A stretch of DNA of 64,000 bases, from positions 1-64,000 of the forward strand of contig JAIBCC010000016.1 in NCBI GenBank assembly GCA_019694395.1, given 5' to 3'. Position numbers and translations under genes: made by a program. The notes beneath the pieces are model-generated. The model did no database searches. It was given only the letters and a program-made list of their open reading frames with translations, and was not told where the DNA came from. Shown here piece by piece: positions 39,278-46,724 of the stretch (position 1 is the first letter of the stretch; every line of letters begins with the position of its first letter). Source of the DNA: Pyrinomonadaceae bacterium. Lineage in GTDB: Bacteria > Acidobacteriota > Blastocatellia > Pyrinomonadales > Pyrinomonadaceae.

Positions 39278-41233
39278 CTATTTCTTTATCAAAACTACGG
39301 GAGCCTGTTCAGCTGCCAGAATTTTTGAGTAAAAGTCTTTGACAGTGTTGTATTTTTCAACCGGAATAGTAGTTCGGTTAGTGACTAAATTCCTTGAGAA
39401 ATAAAGCTTTCCATCTTTGGCTTCGTATTTAGTGTTATATTTTCCAAAGGGAGTTTCGATATTAACCGGATCAGGCATTTCGTCAATTGAAAAGCCATTC
39501 GGTAAGTTAAAAACAACTGTTTCTTTGACCGAGGCTGAATCAAGCAAAATGGGATGGCTTCTTTTTGCCTCCGTTAAAAAAACACCTTCACGTCTACCAA
39601 CAATGACAGGCTTAAAAACTAACAAACGACCTTGCATCAATTGACCATATCCAAGCGCGGAAAACTCTACATCCAAATCAAATCCGGCTTCGGATTGACG
39701 GTCATTGGATTTAAAGTTAAGCAGTTTTGCTCCGGTTGCGCCTCTGGTCAGCCAACTTTCAATTACTTTACGATAATCGGCATTTGAAAGCTCCCGAATT
39801 TCACGGCGAAAAATAGTAGAAGTTTGACCGTTGGCGCGTTCGTTGATAACTCCTTTAATTTCACCGGTTTCGGTTAGGTTAGCTTCGATCTTTCGGTCTA
39901 ACAGATCAGTTTCCGGCGGAGTGATCGGCATTTTAGCTAAACCGCCGTTGTCACCTGCCATTATCAGAGCGTTACTTCCTTGCAAATAATCCGGCAAATC
40001 TCCAACGGGCGTATATGGATCGGTCGCGTCAAAAATCAAAAGTCTGCCCAATGCCGGATGATTAATTATGGTCGGAGCCTTAGTTTCATCACTGACTTTG
40101 ATAGCAATAATGCAATGATTAAATTGATCTGGCGAAGCCCATTCTTCGCGGGTAAAGGTCGGATCGCCGGAAAAAATTGCAATCGGATATGCTTCGATTT
40201 TCAAAACCTTAAGCAATGCCCGCATCAAATTTGCTTTGTCTTTGCAATCACCGTAACCACGGCTTAAAACAGTGGTCGAAGGACGCGGACGATAACCATT
40301 ACCGTGTCCGACTCCAATGTCTATCGAAATATATTGCAGATTTTGCACAAATGCGCCGATTGCCCGAATTTTTTCAAGTTCAGTTTGGGCAGTAGCGGTT
40401 AATTCTTTTGCCTTAGCTGCAATATTGTCGTCAATAACAACCTGCGGATTATGCAATTCTGTTCCCCATCTTGAAACATCTGCCCAATCGGTAAAAACCT
40501 TTCCTACGGATTGCGTTTTGTTATCGGGAAAATAGTTGATAGCGATGCGCGGAGCAATATTTCTGACGCTTGGGCTTAGAGGCTCAGGCGGAATCGGGGC
40601 TAAATTGTGAAGCTCCCAAGTATAAGTATTTCCACTAATCTGTGGTGCGACATCAGCCGTATTAAAGGTTTTGTTGCTGGCTTTCCACCCTGTTGGCAAA
40701 GTCAGAGCATAACGTGAAACGATGGTCGGTAGTCGGTCTTGGAAATTCCACGTATCGTGATAAAAAAGCGGCGTTTCTTCGGAAACAACCGAGTAGCCGA
40801 AAACAAACCCGGCATCAGCTTCGTCCGAAGCATCAATGACCTTCATTCGATATTCATTATAAATATCGTCAGGATCGGAGATTATATCCACAATGTTTTT
40901 CTTATCAAAATTGCGGACAGAGCCGTTTGGTCGCAAAAGCCAACCGTCAATCTCCTTAATTTTTCCCGAACTGACCAAATATAAAGCTCTTGCCATCGCA
41001 ACACTTCTGCCCTCGCGCAAGAGAATTTTGACCGCATAATTGGTTGTCGTGACAAGTTTTCCGTCATTGTTCAGCGTTACCAATTGTTCGTCGTGCAAAA
41101 CAACAGCGGGAACATCTTTTTCGTAAGTCGGGGTTCTGACCGATGCGGCTTGGCGAAACCAAGCCGGAGCATCATCGGCAAAAATCGAATAGGGAATTAA
41201 GAGCAGAAAAAAGAGCAGTGAAAATCGTTTCAT
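39278..41233 (-). CDS. DUF3857 + transglutaminase-like protein with intact triad
   Basis: A 651-residue exported protein. ATG at 41233 has GGAGG 4 nt upstream and opens a clear signal peptide (FSLLFFLLLIPYSIFA); the frame's earlier start is discounted. Residues ~35-210 are DUF3857 and ~250-420 a transglutaminase-like domain with the cysteine at 330 (GYGDCKDKANLMRALL), a histidine in FNHCIIAIKV and an aspartate in LIFDATDPYTPVG, so the papain-like C-H-D triad is complete. The C-terminal third is a beta-rich DUF2569-like or unclassified region. It may act as a periplasmic cross-linking enzyme or protease. It is the last of three DUF3857 genes in a row. Confidence 0.9.
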   Translation of the reverse strand: MKRFSLLFFLLLIPYSIFADDAPAWFRQAASVRTPTYEKDVPAVVLHDEQLVTLNNDGKLVTTTNYAVKILLREGRSVAMARALYLVSSGKIKEIDGWLLRPNGSVRNFDKKNIVDIISDPDDIYNEYRMKVIDASDEADAGFVFGYSVVSEETPLFYHDTWNFQDRLPTIVSRYALTLPTGWKASNKTFNTADVAPQISGNTYTWELHNLAPIPPEPLSPSVRNIAPRIAINYFPDNKTQSVGKVFTDWADVSRWGTELHNPQVVIDDNIAAKAKELTATAQTELEKIRAIGAFVQNLQYISIDIGVGHGNGYRPRPSTTVLSRGYGDCKDKANLMRALLKVLKIEAYPIAIFSGDPTFTREEWASPDQFNHCIIAIKVSDETKAPTIINHPALGRLLIFDATDPYTPVGDLPDYLQGSNALIMAGDNGGLAKMPITPPETDLLDRKIEANLTETGEIKGVINERANGQTSTIFRREIRELSNADYRKVIESWLTRGATGAKLLNFKSNDRQSEAGFDLDVEFSALGYGQLMQGRLLVFKPVIVGRREGVFLTEAKRSHPILLDSASVKETVVFNLPNGFSIDEMPDPVNIETPFGKYNTKYEAKDGKLYFSRNLVTNRTTIPVEKYNTVKDFYSKILAAEQAPVVLIKK

Positions 41234-41290
41234 AAAACCTCCGAAAGGCTTGAGCCTCAATGGATTTTCAAAGAGGCTCAATCTAAAAAA

Positions 41291-43309
41291 CTATTTTTGT
41301 TTCAAAGAAATTGTATGAGAATCAGTTTTGTTAAAAATATCGAAAATGTTCTTAACCGAACTATAAGAATTTTTCGGGAACAGCACAATTCCTCTGCCAA
41401 AAAAGAACTGACGTTTATAAATCATCGTTGCTTGATCTTTGGTAACACCGATGTTTATATCCAATTTGGTAATGTTTTGTGGTTCGGAAAATCCTTGCGG
41501 CGCATCTGCATTATCCAACGCATAATTGGCAGGCAGAGAGAATTCTATTTCGTCGTTTTCTGACCACGGATACCTGAAATAAACGTCATTCGTGCGAGTT
41601 GCCGAAGTAAACAACGGTTTTTCGCCATACTCAAAATAGCCGGGTTGGAAGAAAAGCCGTTTGCCGGTTTTGGTAGCATAATTGGGGACACGAATTTTGT
41701 AGCTATAAACCAAAGGTTTGCTAATATCATTCAGATTTTCGATTTTGATGTCAGAAACTTCAGCCGTCGTCATATTGGCTTTTATTTCTTCTTTGACACT
41801 TTCCTCTTGCTTGGCGGGTGACTCGTCATACATATCCAAGCGACTGACTAAAGCGGTTTGTCCCGTAAATTCAAGTCTGGCTTCACCTTCTAAAGTCCCA
41901 TCTTCGGATAATTTAAATTTTCCGGTGCGTTTTGAATTGGAATATTCGGGAGCAGGTAATGGAGTTTGATACCAAACAAAATCTTTTTCGCCAATGATAA
42001 TAGACCAAGCATTTTCTTCATACCAAACTAATTTTCCAAAGGGGAGAAAAGGCACACCGGGGTTAAAAAATTTCCAATTTTCGCCGTTTTTGATAGCAAT
42101 TGCAGAATGATGAATGAATGCTTCGTTCGTCATTTTGGGATTAAAAATTATTTTGCTTCGATCACCTGAATAAGAGATTCGAGTGTCAAATCCAAGTGAT
42201 GATGCCATTGCGCCAAATAGCAAATCAATAAACCGACTGCTGGCAACTTTGTTCTTTAAAATGTCTCCGGGGCTTCTGTTTTGCGGCAATTTTTCTCTTT
42301 GTTCATCGGTCAGAGTGGTGTCAAAAGAGGTGTTTCTGATTTGAGTTTGGCAGAAATCGTAAAGTTTTCTCAATTTTTCATCATCATTGGCTGCGCCTGT
42401 GGTCAATTCGGCGGCTTTTTGCTTGATTTCTTTATTCGACTTTGTCATCCATTTTGTAATGCCGTTTCTTTCGCCTGCAACCCCTCCCCAATATAATTCG
42501 GGAATACCTGGTATTTTGACAGTGTAGGTAATTCCAAAAGCTGTTGCGTCAACCGCATTAACACTAACGCCTTGAATCAAAATCCAAGGGCGAACCGTAT
42601 CTTCGGGCGGCATTTGCGGCTCTTCCTTATATGCCGGAACATCAAATCTCTCGGCTAAATAAAAGCCTTTATCAGCTTTTTCGCCTTTTTCAAATTCGGT
42701 ATCTTTGAAATTATAGGCTTGATACATCGGTTCTCTGTTATTGTAGGGTTTGTAATAATAGGCGATTCGCTGCAAGGGAATATCTTTTTGAAATTCCAGA
42801 GATAAACCACGCGCACTGGCATCTTCAAAAATTTCCTTGTAGCGATATTCAACAATTACGCCTGCTTCAATTCCGGGAACGGCAAACGATTTGGCTTTTA
42901 TTTTAACCTTGTCGGCTTTGACAATTTCGCGTTCAAAAATATCGTTTTTGCTAATTTCAACGATTGAACCATCAGGTTTGATGACGCGAGCCATAATGTC
43001 TTTTATTTTCAGACCTTTATAAAACGGAATATCAAATTTGCTGTATTTTTCACGTCCGCGTTCGGTAAAAATTTTGACTCGGACATAGTGTTGTTTGGTT
43101 AAATTGGCTTCACTACTATCATCAATCCGAACTTCCCAAAAAATTGCTTCAGCATCCGCATCGGGTTCGACTTGCGGTTTTTTCATTTCCAATTCTTTGG
43201 GCGTGATTGGTTTCCAATCCTTGTCATCTGCCAAGGTTGGAATAACGAAAAGCAAAAAAGTAAAAAGAAAATAAACTAAACAAAGGGGGGAAATTTTTAG
43301 GCGAAACAT
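41291..43309 (-). CDS. DUF3857 protein with degenerate transglutaminase domain (1)
   Basis: A 672-residue exported protein. ATG at 43309 (GAGG 9 nt upstream) is preferred to TTG at 43324. The signal peptide is LCLVYFLFTFLLFVIPTLA. DUF3857 lies at ~40-200 (FWEVRIDDSSEANLTKQHYVRVKIFTERG is interrupted here only for length: key parts are RVKIFTERGREKYSKFDIPF and IKPDGSIVE). In the transglutaminase-like domain the place of the cysteine reads ASSRFIDLLFGAM instead of GDCKDKANLMRAL, and the aspartate position reads FFNPG; only the histidine (IHHSAIAI) remains. It is therefore probably not an active transglutaminase. Close tandem paralogue of the next gene. Confidence 0.9.
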   Translation of the reverse strand: MFRLKISPLCLVYFLFTFLLFVIPTLADDKDWKPITPKELEMKKPQVEPDADAEAIFWEVRIDDSSEANLTKQHYVRVKIFTERGREKYSKFDIPFYKGLKIKDIMARVIKPDGSIVEISKNDIFEREIVKADKVKIKAKSFAVPGIEAGVIVEYRYKEIFEDASARGLSLEFQKDIPLQRIAYYYKPYNNREPMYQAYNFKDTEFEKGEKADKGFYLAERFDVPAYKEEPQMPPEDTVRPWILIQGVSVNAVDATAFGITYTVKIPGIPELYWGGVAGERNGITKWMTKSNKEIKQKAAELTTGAANDDEKLRKLYDFCQTQIRNTSFDTTLTDEQREKLPQNRSPGDILKNKVASSRFIDLLFGAMASSLGFDTRISYSGDRSKIIFNPKMTNEAFIHHSAIAIKNGENWKFFNPGVPFLPFGKLVWYEENAWSIIIGEKDFVWYQTPLPAPEYSNSKRTGKFKLSEDGTLEGEARLEFTGQTALVSRLDMYDESPAKQEESVKEEIKANMTTAEVSDIKIENLNDISKPLVYSYKIRVPNYATKTGKRLFFQPGYFEYGEKPLFTSATRTNDVYFRYPWSENDEIEFSLPANYALDNADAPQGFSEPQNITKLDINIGVTKDQATMIYKRQFFFGRGIVLFPKNSYSSVKNIFDIFNKTDSHTISLKQK

Positions 43310-43423
43310 AATTGAATACCTCAATGAGAATGTAGCCGCAAATTGCTTGCGGGAAAGGGGTTACGGGAAACATTGGAGAACTGGGGGGAACTCCAACTGC
43401 AAATTGAAGCACTATTCGAGTGA

Positions 43424-43452
43424 ATCTTATACCAAGACTTTGACGTAAGCAA
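43424..43452 (-). promoter_or_regulatory. probable sigma-70 promoter (DUF3857 gene 2)
   Basis: TTGCTT-N17-TAAGAT on the minus strand, about 115 bp upstream of the ATG at 43309. The same boxes, the same 17-bp spacer length and neighbouring bases (GATTCACTCGAA) recur upstream of the paralogue at 45540-45568. Confidence 0.6.
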
Positions 43453-43486
43453 GAAAAAAACATTTATTCGGAAAAAATCCATACAA

Positions 43487-45430
43487 TTATTTTTGCCGCA
43501 AGGTAATTGTATGCGAATCAGCTTTATGAAAAGAATCAAAAAGTGCCTTTATCGGTTGATAGAATTTTGGCATAAAAAGAACATTTCCATTGTCCCCAAA
43601 ATGAAAATTCCGGTCATATTTTAATAAAGTTTTATCATCATTAACGGTAATTTTGATGGTTTGTCCGGTGACTCTTTTAGCTGCATCCCTAACGGGCGCA
43701 GGCGCGTCAGAGGCTTCTAAAAGATAATTGGACGGTAAAGAAATTTCTATCTCATCCTGATCAGACCAGCCATATTCAAAATACATCGGATGAATGCGGT
43801 CATTGGCAGTAAATAAAGGTTTCTCGCCATATTCAAAAAAACCGGGTTGCAGAAATATTCTTTTACCTGTTTTTTGAGCATAATTTGGAATCCGAACTTT
43901 ATAACTGTAAACCAGAGGTTTTGAATTATCGTCGAAGTTTTCAACCGAAATGTTCGTTACTTCGGCTAAACTAAGGCGTTTTTTAACATCGTCTTTGATC
44001 TCATCTTCACGTTTGGTCGGCGAATCCTGATAATGTTCCTGACGGCGCGAAATCGCTCTCTGTCCGTAATATTCGGTTCTCACATCGCCTTCTAAAGTCC
44101 CGTCATCGAGTAAATTAAATTTGCCCGTTCTTTTGGCTAAAGAAACTTCGGGCGGAGTCAGCGGAATTATTCTCCAGGTAGTATTGCCTGTTTCAGAAAC
44201 AAACATAGCGGCGGTTTCTTCATACCAGATTATGTTCCCAAAAGGCAGATAAGGCGTTCCGGGATTAAAATATTTATAAGTATTGCCATCTGCCACAACC
44301 GCAATGCAGCAAGGATGAACAAAAGAATAGATCGGATATTTTTCTTGAGTAAAGAAATGTTGACTACGATCGGCAGAGAGAACCAAATACGGATTAAATC
44401 CGGCGGCTTTTGCCAATGAAGCAAACAAGAGATCAATGTATTGTGAATTTCCAACTTTGTTTTTGAGTGCATCAGTCGGATTTTTTAGCTTAAAATTTTC
44501 GCGTTGTTCATCCGTGAAAGAGCGGTCAAAACTGATATTCCGAATCTGTTTTTGGGTAAATTCATAGATGCGTTTGAGTTTTTCTTCATTAGAAGAAATT
44601 CCATTGGTCAATTCATTAGCTTTTTGCTGAATTTCTTTAGAAGGTTTGATCGCTTCAGTAAAATATTGGCTGGCTCCCAAACCAAAAAAAGACCAGCTAA
44701 AATCTGAATAGGATGATCTGTATTTGAGCAGCACCCAGGGGCGCGCTTCATCCTCCGGCGGCATTTGGTCTTCTTCTTTGAAAGCTGGAACATTGGTGAC
44801 CGTTCCGCGATAAAAATTATCCGTATCAGGGGTAAAAGTAAATTCCTGAGTATTGTAGAACTTAAAACCGACCGGCAGGTTTTGATAGGGGCGAACATAA
44901 TAAGTCAGTCTTTGCACCGGAATATCGCGCTGCAGGGGAAGTCTTTCGTCATTCAAGGAATCGCCCTTAAAAGTTTCTTTGTATTGATATTCGACAATGA
45001 CTCCGACTTCGATCGAAGGAATAGCAAATGATTTGGCTTGAATCTTAAACTTCTTTGATTTAAAAATTTCACGCTCGAAAATGTCATTTGGATTTAATTC
45101 AATGATTGAGCCGTCAGGTTTGATAACGCGGGCTGCAATATCTTCGATCTTTTTTCCTTTAGTGAAAGGAATATCGAATTTACTGTATTTTTCACGTCCG
45201 CGTTCGGTAAAGATTTTCACCCGAATATAGTGATTATAAGAAAGGTTTCCGCCTTTTTTGTCATCCAGACGAACTTCCCAAAAGATTGCTTCGACATCTG
45301 AATCGGGTTCAACCTGAGGCGTTTTCATGGCTAATTCAACAGGTGTCACAGGTTTCCATTCGGGATTATCAGCCAAAACATTGATGAAAAAAAGAAGGGC
45401 GAATGTGATTAAAAATAAACCACGTAGCAT
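43487..45430 (-). CDS. DUF3857 protein with degenerate transglutaminase domain (2)
   Basis: A 647-residue exported protein. AAGGA precedes the ATG and the signal peptide is LFLITFALLFFINVLA. It is closely related to the 41291-43309 product over its whole length, with identical runs such as RVKIFTERGREKYSKFDIPF and VIKPDGSI. The transglutaminase cysteine is again missing (VGNSQYIDLLFAS), the histidine is kept (FVHPCCIAVV) and the aspartate is replaced (FNPGTPYLPFG). Likely a binding or structural protein rather than an enzyme. It has its own promoter-like region, a copy of the one in front of its paralogue. Confidence 0.9.
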   Translation of the reverse strand: MLRGLFLITFALLFFINVLADNPEWKPVTPVELAMKTPQVEPDSDVEAIFWEVRLDDKKGGNLSYNHYIRVKIFTERGREKYSKFDIPFTKGKKIEDIAARVIKPDGSIIELNPNDIFEREIFKSKKFKIQAKSFAIPSIEVGVIVEYQYKETFKGDSLNDERLPLQRDIPVQRLTYYVRPYQNLPVGFKFYNTQEFTFTPDTDNFYRGTVTNVPAFKEEDQMPPEDEARPWVLLKYRSSYSDFSWSFFGLGASQYFTEAIKPSKEIQQKANELTNGISSNEEKLKRIYEFTQKQIRNISFDRSFTDEQRENFKLKNPTDALKNKVGNSQYIDLLFASLAKAAGFNPYLVLSADRSQHFFTQEKYPIYSFVHPCCIAVVADGNTYKYFNPGTPYLPFGNIIWYEETAAMFVSETGNTTWRIIPLTPPEVSLAKRTGKFNLLDDGTLEGDVRTEYYGQRAISRRQEHYQDSPTKREDEIKDDVKKRLSLAEVTNISVENFDDNSKPLVYSYKVRIPNYAQKTGKRIFLQPGFFEYGEKPLFTANDRIHPMYFEYGWSDQDEIEISLPSNYLLEASDAPAPVRDAAKRVTGQTIKITVNDDKTLLKYDRNFHFGDNGNVLFMPKFYQPIKALFDSFHKADSHTITLRQK

Positions 45431-45647: not shown

Positions 45648-46724
45648 ATGGCTGTTGATTACAGTAAAATTCAAGAACTTTTAGGCTCGGATGCCGAATC
45701 TCTTTTGGGTTTTTCAACCCCGAAAATTTCTAAAGAAAATCTTTCTCTCCCCAGCGGAGATTTTGTTGATAAGGTTTGGATTAGCTCAGACCGTAATCCG
45801 AATGTTTTGCGTTCACTGCAAACGCTTTTTGATAACGGACGTTTGAAAGGCACGGGTTATCTTTCGATTCTTCCGGTTGATCAGGGGATCGAACACTCGG
45901 CAGGTGCATCATTTGCGCCGAATCCGGCATATTTTGACCCAGAAAATATTGTTAAATTAGCAATTGAAGGTGGATGTAATGCGGTTGCTTCAACATATGG
46001 CGTGCTTGGTGCAGTTGCCCGTAAATATGCTCATAAAATTCCGTTCATCGTCAAAATCAACCACAACGAGCTTTTAACCTATCCGAATCAATTTGACCAG
46101 GTAATGTTCGGCACGATTGATCAAGCCCGAGATATGGGGGCAGTTGCCGTTGGTGCGACAATTTATTTCGGGTCTGACCAATCAACCCGACAAATCCAGG
46201 AAGTTTCGCAAGCCTTTGCTTATGCACACGAGCTTGGAATGGCAACAATTCTGTGGTGCTATTTGCGGAATCCGAAATTCAAAGGCAAAGACGGCGACAT
46301 GCACACCGCTGCCGATTTGACCGGACAAGCCAATCATTTAGGCGTAACCATTCAAGCCGACATCATCAAACAAAAATTGCCCGAACGCAACGGCGGTTAC
46401 AATATGCTCAATGTTGAAAGCAGTTACGGCAAAACCAATCCGAAAATTTATACCGATTTAAGTTCGGATAATCCGATTGATTTGGTGCGTTACCAGGTAG
46501 CAAATTGTTATATGGGACGTTGCGGACTGATCAATTCCGGTGGTGAATCAAAAGGTGCAGGCGATATGGCGGATGCCGTTCGCACCGCAGTTATCAATAA
46601 ACGCGGCGGCGGAATGGGCTTGATCTCAGGTCGTAAGGCATTCCAGCGTCCAATGTCGGAAGGCGCAGAACTTCTTAACGCAATTCAAGATGTTTATTTA
46701 GCTGAAGAAGTTACCATCGCATAA
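45648..46724 (+). CDS. fbaB: class I fructose-bisphosphate aldolase
   Basis: A 358-residue cytoplasmic TIM-barrel aldolase of the archaeal/DhnA type, cleaving fructose 1,6-bisphosphate in glycolysis or joining triose phosphates in gluconeogenesis. AGGAGA precedes the ATG. The landmarks are [17 protein letters not shown] near residue 80 (phosphate and active-site aspartate), [22 protein letters not shown], the TILWCYLRN strand, the Schiff-base region [12 protein letters not shown] near residue 240, and the phosphate loop [12 protein letters not shown]. Length and order are typical for FbaB. It is a single-gene unit with its own terminator. Confidence 0.95.

Follow-up and report, generated by a model that had tools for sequence, protein, structure and literature searches.

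A triad-bearing DUF3857 transglutaminase-like protein and its two cysteine-less neighbours as a possible enzyme-pseudoenzyme system in Pyrinomonadaceae

Why should a bacterial genome carry two transglutaminase-like genes that lack the catalytic cysteine directly beside a homologue that has it? The question is raised by three consecutive DUF3857 (PF12969) genes on the minus strand of contig JAIBCC010000016.1 from a Pyrinomonadaceae bacterium (GCA_019694395.1), of which we analysed positions 1 to 64,000 (the window, 64,000 nucleotides, nt). Active and inactive homologues are found side by side in many Acidobacteriota and in two Bacteroidota records as well, a recurrence suggesting that the inactive copy works together with the active enzyme. 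We favour, with a probability of roughly 55%, the reading that the three genes form an operon-like unit encoding an exported enzyme of two components, a catalytic subunit and one or more pseudoenzyme subunits. The genes, named by their lower coordinate and given in their order along the minus strand, are the following (aa, amino acids):

43487..45430, minus strand: inactive-type (I-type) DUF3857 and transglutaminase-like protein, first of the trio, 647 aa with a signal-peptide-like N-terminus
41291..43309, minus strand: second I-type (inactive) protein, ATG at 43309, length 672 aa
39278..41233, minus strand: active-type (A-type) DUF3857 and transglutaminase-like protein, ATG at 41233
41237..41242, minus strand: GGAGGT, likely ribosome-binding site of the 39278 gene

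The tandem DUF3857 trio named in the original prediction is borne out by these adjacent genes, which are separated by 177 nt (first and second) and 57 nt (second and third) and which make up all PF12969 matches in a profile search of the source genome (88.8% complete). All three proteins pass the DUF3857 cut-off of 24.6 bits (39278, 45.8; 41291, 44.7; 43487, 62.8), and the Transglut_core profile (PF01841, cut-off 23 bits) scores above threshold with the 39278 and 43487 proteins (29.2 and 24.9) and below it with the 41291 protein (17.1). DUF3858 (PF12970, cut-off 27 bits) stays below its cut-off in the 39278 protein at 20.9 bits and gave no match with the other two at E values up to 1; to the same limit, the profile of BTLCP, the LapG/HvyA family, is not among the profile matches of the trio proteins. 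Two starts were revised, to the ATG at 41233 behind GGAGGT for the 39278 gene and to the ATG at 43309 for the 41291 gene, the TTG starts in the list of reading frames being mechanical. Each of the three N-termini has a hydrophobic stretch that resembles, by eye, a signal peptide, on which basis the products would be exported, and the genes are presumably co-transcribed. The proteins had been called strongly alike, which is true of the two inactive copies (51% identity) and untrue of either copy against the 39278 protein, to which they are only 21% and 22% identical.

Which residues have been kept, and which replaced? The catalytic columns fall at these positions:

40244..40246, minus strand: catalytic Cys of the 39278 protein, in GDCKDKA (C330 counted from the ATG, 331 in alignment and model numbering)
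40115..40117, minus strand: catalytic His of the 39278 protein, in FNHCIIAI (aligned column)
40028..40030, minus strand: catalytic Asp of the 39278 protein, in LIFDATDP (aligned column)
42236..42238, minus strand: Ser358 of the 41291 protein, in the catalytic Cys column (alignment)
42107..42109, minus strand: His401 of the 41291 protein, in the catalytic His column (alignment)
42062..42064, minus strand: Asn416 of the 41291 protein, in the catalytic Asp column (alignment)
44444..44446, minus strand: Ser329 of the 43487 protein, in the catalytic Cys column (alignment) and first residue of helix 329-342 (model)
44312..44314, minus strand: Pro373 of the 43487 protein, in the catalytic His column, with His372 one residue earlier (alignment)
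44264..44266, minus strand: Asn389 of the 43487 protein, in the catalytic Asp column (alignment)

A Cys-His-Asp/Asn triad is present in the 39278 protein and missing from the 41291 and 43487 proteins, and the 39278-type Cys, His and Asp are invariant across a 54-row alignment of A-type proteins. The complete site claimed for the 39278 protein thus holds at the aligned columns, as does the claim that in the other two the Cys is gone and Asn replaces Asp, since Ser and Asn stand there; that both would keep only the His is right for the 41291 protein (His401 lies on the column) and wrong for the 43487 protein, which has Pro on the column and its His one residue before. We looked for an alternative catalytic Cys at the site and found none, so that the claim of inactive copies survives: the only Cys residues of the 43487 protein, 374 and 375, directly follow the His column and are unconserved across 80 sequences, and in none of 101 inactive relatives (introduced below) does a Cys lie 6 or fewer columns away from the catalytic Cys column. 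According to the accessible part of PMC4241560, the cysteine protease HvyA is functional with D241N and non-functional with C192S/A. A change from Asp to Asn alone therefore need not inactivate, and the losses that matter are those of the Cys and, in most relatives, of the His. Judged by these residues, both copies would lack catalysis.

Models of the 39278 and 43487 proteins, the latter 51% identical to the 41291 protein, place these residues in space. Both models are confident (predicted local distance difference test, pLDDT, 92.2 for 39278 and 94.1 for 43487; predicted template modelling score, pTM, 0.87 and 0.88), and in both a helix starts at the site, spanning residues 331-344 from the catalytic Cys in the first and 329-342 from Ser329 in the second. 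Ser329 is therefore at the helix start equivalent to that of the catalytic Cys, and the loss of the triad is, on the predicted folds, no alignment artefact. The best structural match of both models is PDB 3kd4, aligned nearly full length and to its end (39278: Z 25.9, root-mean-square deviation (rmsd) 3.5, 488 residues aligned; 43487: Z 18.9, rmsd 6.5, 478 aligned), and in the core both match solved proteins of the transglutaminase fold, such as TG3 for 39278 (1l9m_B: Z 10.7, rmsd 4.7, 163 aligned) and PNGase (2f4o_A: Z 10.2, rmsd 3.6, 163 aligned) and TG3 (8oxx_A: Z 9.9, rmsd 3.9, 156 aligned) for 43487. The second-best Foldseek matches of both models are to Ost1/ribophorin I, a subunit of the eukaryotic oligosaccharyltransferase, from about residue 42 to the end over about 300 residues at an rmsd of 15-20; to go by the models, ribophorin I may share with them a DUF3857-like domain at either end while lacking the transglutaminase core.

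Is the loss a peculiarity of this genome? When further genomes were scanned with an alignment of I proteins, the best 80 of 181 relatives fell into 78 loci (L113-L190 in our numbering), all with titles from Acidobacteriota, including Pyrinomonadaceae, Blastocatellia, Bryobacterales and Terriglobia. The A pieces of these loci have the Cys in 70/71, the His in 68/71 and the Asp in 68/71 cases, the remainder being gaps, and the I copies have the Cys in 0/101 and the His in 1/101. In the Asp column of the 101 copies stand Asp (45), Asn (29) and Ser (18), and in the Cys column Ser (31/101), the rest having Gly, Ala, Trp, Pro or still other residues. An overlapping earlier set of 60 stretches has the Cys in none of 64 I rows and in 47 of 48 A-grouped rows, the latter including L035 (a gap at the column) and L092 (another subfamily), which were placed with A by score only.

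These columns bear on whether the Cys-less proteins could carry out a different catalysis with a displaced nucleophile, for example through Ser-His-Asn in the 41291 protein. Ser358, His401 and Asn416 do occupy the three columns there, and the third triad position can change in vasohibins, as the accessible part of PMC4866520 has it. However, the Ser is found in fewer than a third of the I copies and the His in a single one, the His column holds Pro in L034 and L063, which share 59-60% identity with the 41291 protein, and HvyA C192S/A is non-functional (PMC4241560), which makes such catalysis distinctly improbable in our view. As a conserved feature the serine triad of the 41291 protein was rejected, the columns not being kept in relatives.

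Conservation also separates the two families. A proteins are most conserved in the transglutaminase domain (0.763 versus 0.57-0.63 in the other mature segments), with the top peak at YGDCKDKANLM. For I proteins the values are 0.546 in the transglutaminase domain, 0.552 and 0.576 in the C-terminal parts, 0.599 in DUF3857, 0.644 in the segment before DUF3857 and 0.471 in the linker, and one of nine peaks (LFAALATAAGF) lies in the transglutaminase domain, the others lying outside it (e.g. YVRVKIFTERG, EPDADAEAIFW and YAQRTGKRLFL). This profile indicates that I proteins are no longer under the added constraint that an active site in use imposes and remain under that of a folded, interacting protein. 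Decaying, functionless duplicates might be suspected from a few visibly broken copies (L079 in genome G056 is split in two, and the first copy in L038 is only 522 aa long), but 95 full-length I reading frames can be obtained from L113-L190, 80 of these and the window's two have 16 invariant columns in common (start Met counted), and the conserved motifs lie mostly outside the old active site; we regard decay as very improbable.

Do the two types occur together? Searches with both proteins, active and inactive, in 78 related genomes and that of the window (79 in all) found the A type in 45, the I type in 46 and both in 44, so that the co-occurrence check suggested with the original prediction was positive: 44/45 genomes with the active type also carry the inactive type. 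In the sole A-only genome, G036, the A match is a 137-residue fragment. Two genomes are I-only, G065, whose copy is cut by a contig end, and G056, which is listed as 100% complete and in which no A was found and I consists of the two broken pieces mentioned above (L079:2536-3805), a pattern that fits joint loss of both genes. Matches to the DUF3857 family as a whole were found in at least 46/79 of these related genomes and at least 126/247 genomes drawn from the phylum, counts that are lower bounds because the looser search caught only two of the window's three genes. G068 and G075 have, besides a normal pair, diverged lone A-like (L087, L090) and I-like (L086, L091) genes on different contigs, possibly a second pair that was split.

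Gene order is equally regular. At 70 of the 78 loci L113-L190, an A gene comes after I in the same orientation, with the reading frames at most 184 nt apart and the inactive gene directly upstream; these loci were located via I, so the count tells how often A follows I and not the reverse. Within the stretch examined, the ordered loci contain at least one I copy (54 loci), at least two (10) or at least three (6). The other eight comprise five that stop at a contig end, two with a lone I (L156, L168) and one with a single reading frame. L174 (QHZQ01000198.1, 4581-8639), one frame of 1352 residues, was considered as an I-A fusion and rejected: its I part is without the usual C-terminus, the frame crosses the intergenic stretch, and A keeps its own ATG and a signal-peptide-like start. 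It is probably a run-through and not usable as interaction evidence. Finally, I and A distances across 36 loci correlate after removal of the distances of the neighbouring aldolase gene (partial r 0.55; 0/1000 permutations as high), compared with partial r values of 0.27 for aldolase-A and 0.16 for aldolase-I, a covariation that is only suggestive given the single control gene.

How far does the pattern extend within the phylum? Among the matches listed in a survey of 247 genomes we picked 40 loci, 20 of them tandem-looking (19 with two neighbouring matches and L103 with one; 19 genomes) and 20 solitary-looking (19 genomes). One triad-bearing and one triad-less protein make up 18/20 of the tandem-looking set, the others being L110, with two triad-less proteins, and L103, cut by the contig; the second protein of L107 keeps the Cys with Ser at the His and Asp columns, and L112 has an additional Cys-His-Asp piece on the opposite strand. 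Thirteen of the 20 solitary-looking loci (L201-L213; ten from family f15, three from f23) do have a triad-less neighbour. The other seven are triad-bearing and single within the stretch fetched (L214 and L200 with short flanks), three of them compact (L195, L198, L199) and four long (L196, L197, L200, L214). In L203, L204 and L207 the partner and the active gene are on opposite strands, and the partner has Asn at the Cys column with His and Asp retained, which from its sequence would be an earlier or a different kind of inactivation. Over the loci of relative and phylum genomes, for 72/81 of the compact proteins that carry Cys and His, a triad-less homologue lies no more than 1.2 kilobases away, and the remaining nine comprise four without flank at a contig end and five clear exceptions. 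Pairing is thus a rule for the compact type, one with exceptions and with a gene order that varies between lineages. The arrangement is that of an enzyme and a pseudoenzyme: neighbouring homologous genes, one without the catalytic motif, conserved together.

When did the inactive type arise? In an unrooted tree of 72 rows the window's active protein belongs to a group of 17 active rows (support 99) and its inactive pair to one of 27 inactive rows (96), and the two groups, 44 rows in all, join (94), the two proteins of L108 and, on a long branch, the inactive protein of Persicobacter included. 3kd4 falls in a second inactive group, together with the inactive partners found in further families of the phylum, and a third inactive case, L110_N_2430, lies within an active group. 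The tree requires three switches between active and inactive, two of them forced by starred branches, and several branches are long; it suggests several origins of the inactive type, which are suggested rather than shown because a single clade holding the 37 inactive rows together is not rejected (approximately unbiased test, p-AU 0.152). A and I form separate clades, and because each spans several acidobacterial families and classes, their split is far older than this genome. In the original prediction the two copies had arisen locally, by duplication of the active neighbour and subsequent change, as neighbouring genes of one family and one architecture might indicate; this is contradicted by the tree, with both clades running through many genera, and by the 21-22% identity, and we hardly expect it to be true. 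Later duplication accounts only for the step from one inactive copy to two. The non-enzymatic role linked to the active copy, which had also been predicted, is supported by conservation, co-occurrence and the recurring active/inactive neighbours.

Outside Acidobacteriota we examined three Bacteroidota records from a plasmid collection and one Pseudomonadota record, and an active/inactive pair is present in two of the three former. In Parabacteroides distasonis the active gene is followed by a Cys-less gene whose product aligns with 3kd4 over 505 residues at 1126.9 bits, and in Persicobacter a protein with Cys and His (third column Glu) is followed by one with Ser at the Cys and Asn at the His column. 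3kd4 was found by the A profile and by structure, and was not found by the I profile in the sequence search. A tentative generalisation, to which we give somewhat less than an even chance, is that compact DUF3857 proteins are two-subunit enzymes in at least Acidobacteriota and Bacteroidota, the pair having arisen once in deep time or, on the best tree, more than once, with 3kd4 being such a pseudoenzyme subunit.

How would such an enzyme work? The 39278 gene would encode the catalytic subunit, in which a DUF3857 beta-sandwich precedes, and a 3kd4-like domain follows, a cysteine hydrolase or acyltransferase of the transglutaminase fold. Pseudoenzyme subunits of the same architecture, which gave up the catalytic residues and conserved the rest, would be the products of the 41291 and 43487 genes, and such a subunit would bind the catalytic one and complete, position or gate its substrate site, a part played by the inactive half in the M16B pairs described below.

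Several observations weigh against a two-component enzyme. Both neighbouring DUF3857 proteins of L110 (2430-6496) are without the triad and no enzyme is apparent; five compact proteins with Cys and His (L087, L090, L195, L198 and L199) have no triad-less neighbour, although 900 nt or more of sequence flank each on either side; and lone I copies occur in several genomes (L055, L061, L075, L082, L086, L091; L048 has three). From the lone I and the unpaired compact A copies it follows that neither adjacency nor a one-to-one ratio is required of the partners. Much of the wider count comes from the 40 loci picked by hand, 19 of which were taken because two matches lay together, co-occurrence is inflated by common descent, with the Fisher test treating genomes as independent, and the covariation is controlled by a single gene that evolves slowly. 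The Aureibacter record (Bacteroidota) showed no pair, with a single annotated DUF3857 gene whose hypothetical neighbour was left out of testing, and the Caballeronia record (Pseudomonadota) showed only a single active gene and no pair. The complex of A and I is itself something that we infer.

With no complex, the Cys-less proteins might be independent binders that act in the same process and hold a substrate or product of the enzyme, for instance a peptide or envelope polymer. The shared exported architecture, the neighbouring genes, the lone I copies elsewhere and the high variability of the I family at the former active site are in line with this. Yet the fixed order, the near one-to-one presence and the covariation beyond that of the neighbouring gene fit a closer link, although a binder could accommodate them too, and we judge independent binding to be unlikely.

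Should the pairing rule be true, three things would follow: assays of the active protein without its partner may fail for that reason, the label "putative protease" on 3kd4 would be misleading, and the DUF3857 family would be a natural set for studying how pseudoenzymes arise and persist beside enzymes.

The surroundings of the trio were considered as a clue to function. Upstream lies one gene of note:

45648-46724, divergent from the trio: DeoC/LacD-type aldolase gene (profile scan of the window copy)

The commonest neighbour, at 40/78 loci, is a divergent gene that resembles the window aldolase by eye, only the window copy having been scanned. We set this clue aside, the divergent aldolase-like gene being best read as local synteny that indicates no process. 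In the literature searched, outside which most subscription journals lie, we found no function for DUF3857, which the accessible parts of the sources use only as a gene label, and nothing direct on transglutaminase-like pseudoenzymes in bacteria. Enzyme-pseudoenzyme pairs are already known, and within the same literature the DUF3857 family was not found described as one.

How does the trio compare with known systems? One of the closest is 3kd4 (BDI_1141 of Parabacteroides distasonis), which is itself Cys-less (GTP for GDC) and whose gene follows a triad-bearing DUF3857 gene; it differs in having 13-15% identity to the window proteins, in belonging to the other inactive branch and in that the active gene comes first there. 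The active model also matches a transglutaminase-fold protein without catalysis, 7uzs (Z 9.5, rmsd 4.0, 154 aligned), which we take to be erythrocyte protein 4.2, a Cys-less transglutaminase homologue. Protein 4.2 is a eukaryotic membrane-skeleton protein and is not known as a paired subunit of a transglutaminase. LapG (4fgp_A versus the 39278 model: Z 10.1, rmsd 3.8, 137 aligned) and HvyA resemble the active protein as exported periplasmic transglutaminase-like cysteine proteases with a Cys-His-Asp triad, but the accessible part of PMC4241560 describes HvyA as a signal sequence plus one BTLCP domain, with no DUF3857 and no Cys-less sister subunit. Pseudoenzymes that activate relatives through heterodimers are a recognised group in the portion of PMC10211241 open to us, and the M16B peptidases offer a precedent. 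Their fold is that of an unrelated zinc metallopeptidase, and the DUF3857 complex is a proposed one. The likeness lies in the arrangement: in the accessible part of PMC12731061, the M16B pairs TTHA1264/TTHA1265, SPH2681/SPH2682 and the mitochondrial processing peptidase consist of homologous subunits, typically one with the active site, and TTHA1264, monomeric and inactive alone, forms an active heterodimer with TTHA1265, the product of the neighbouring gene.

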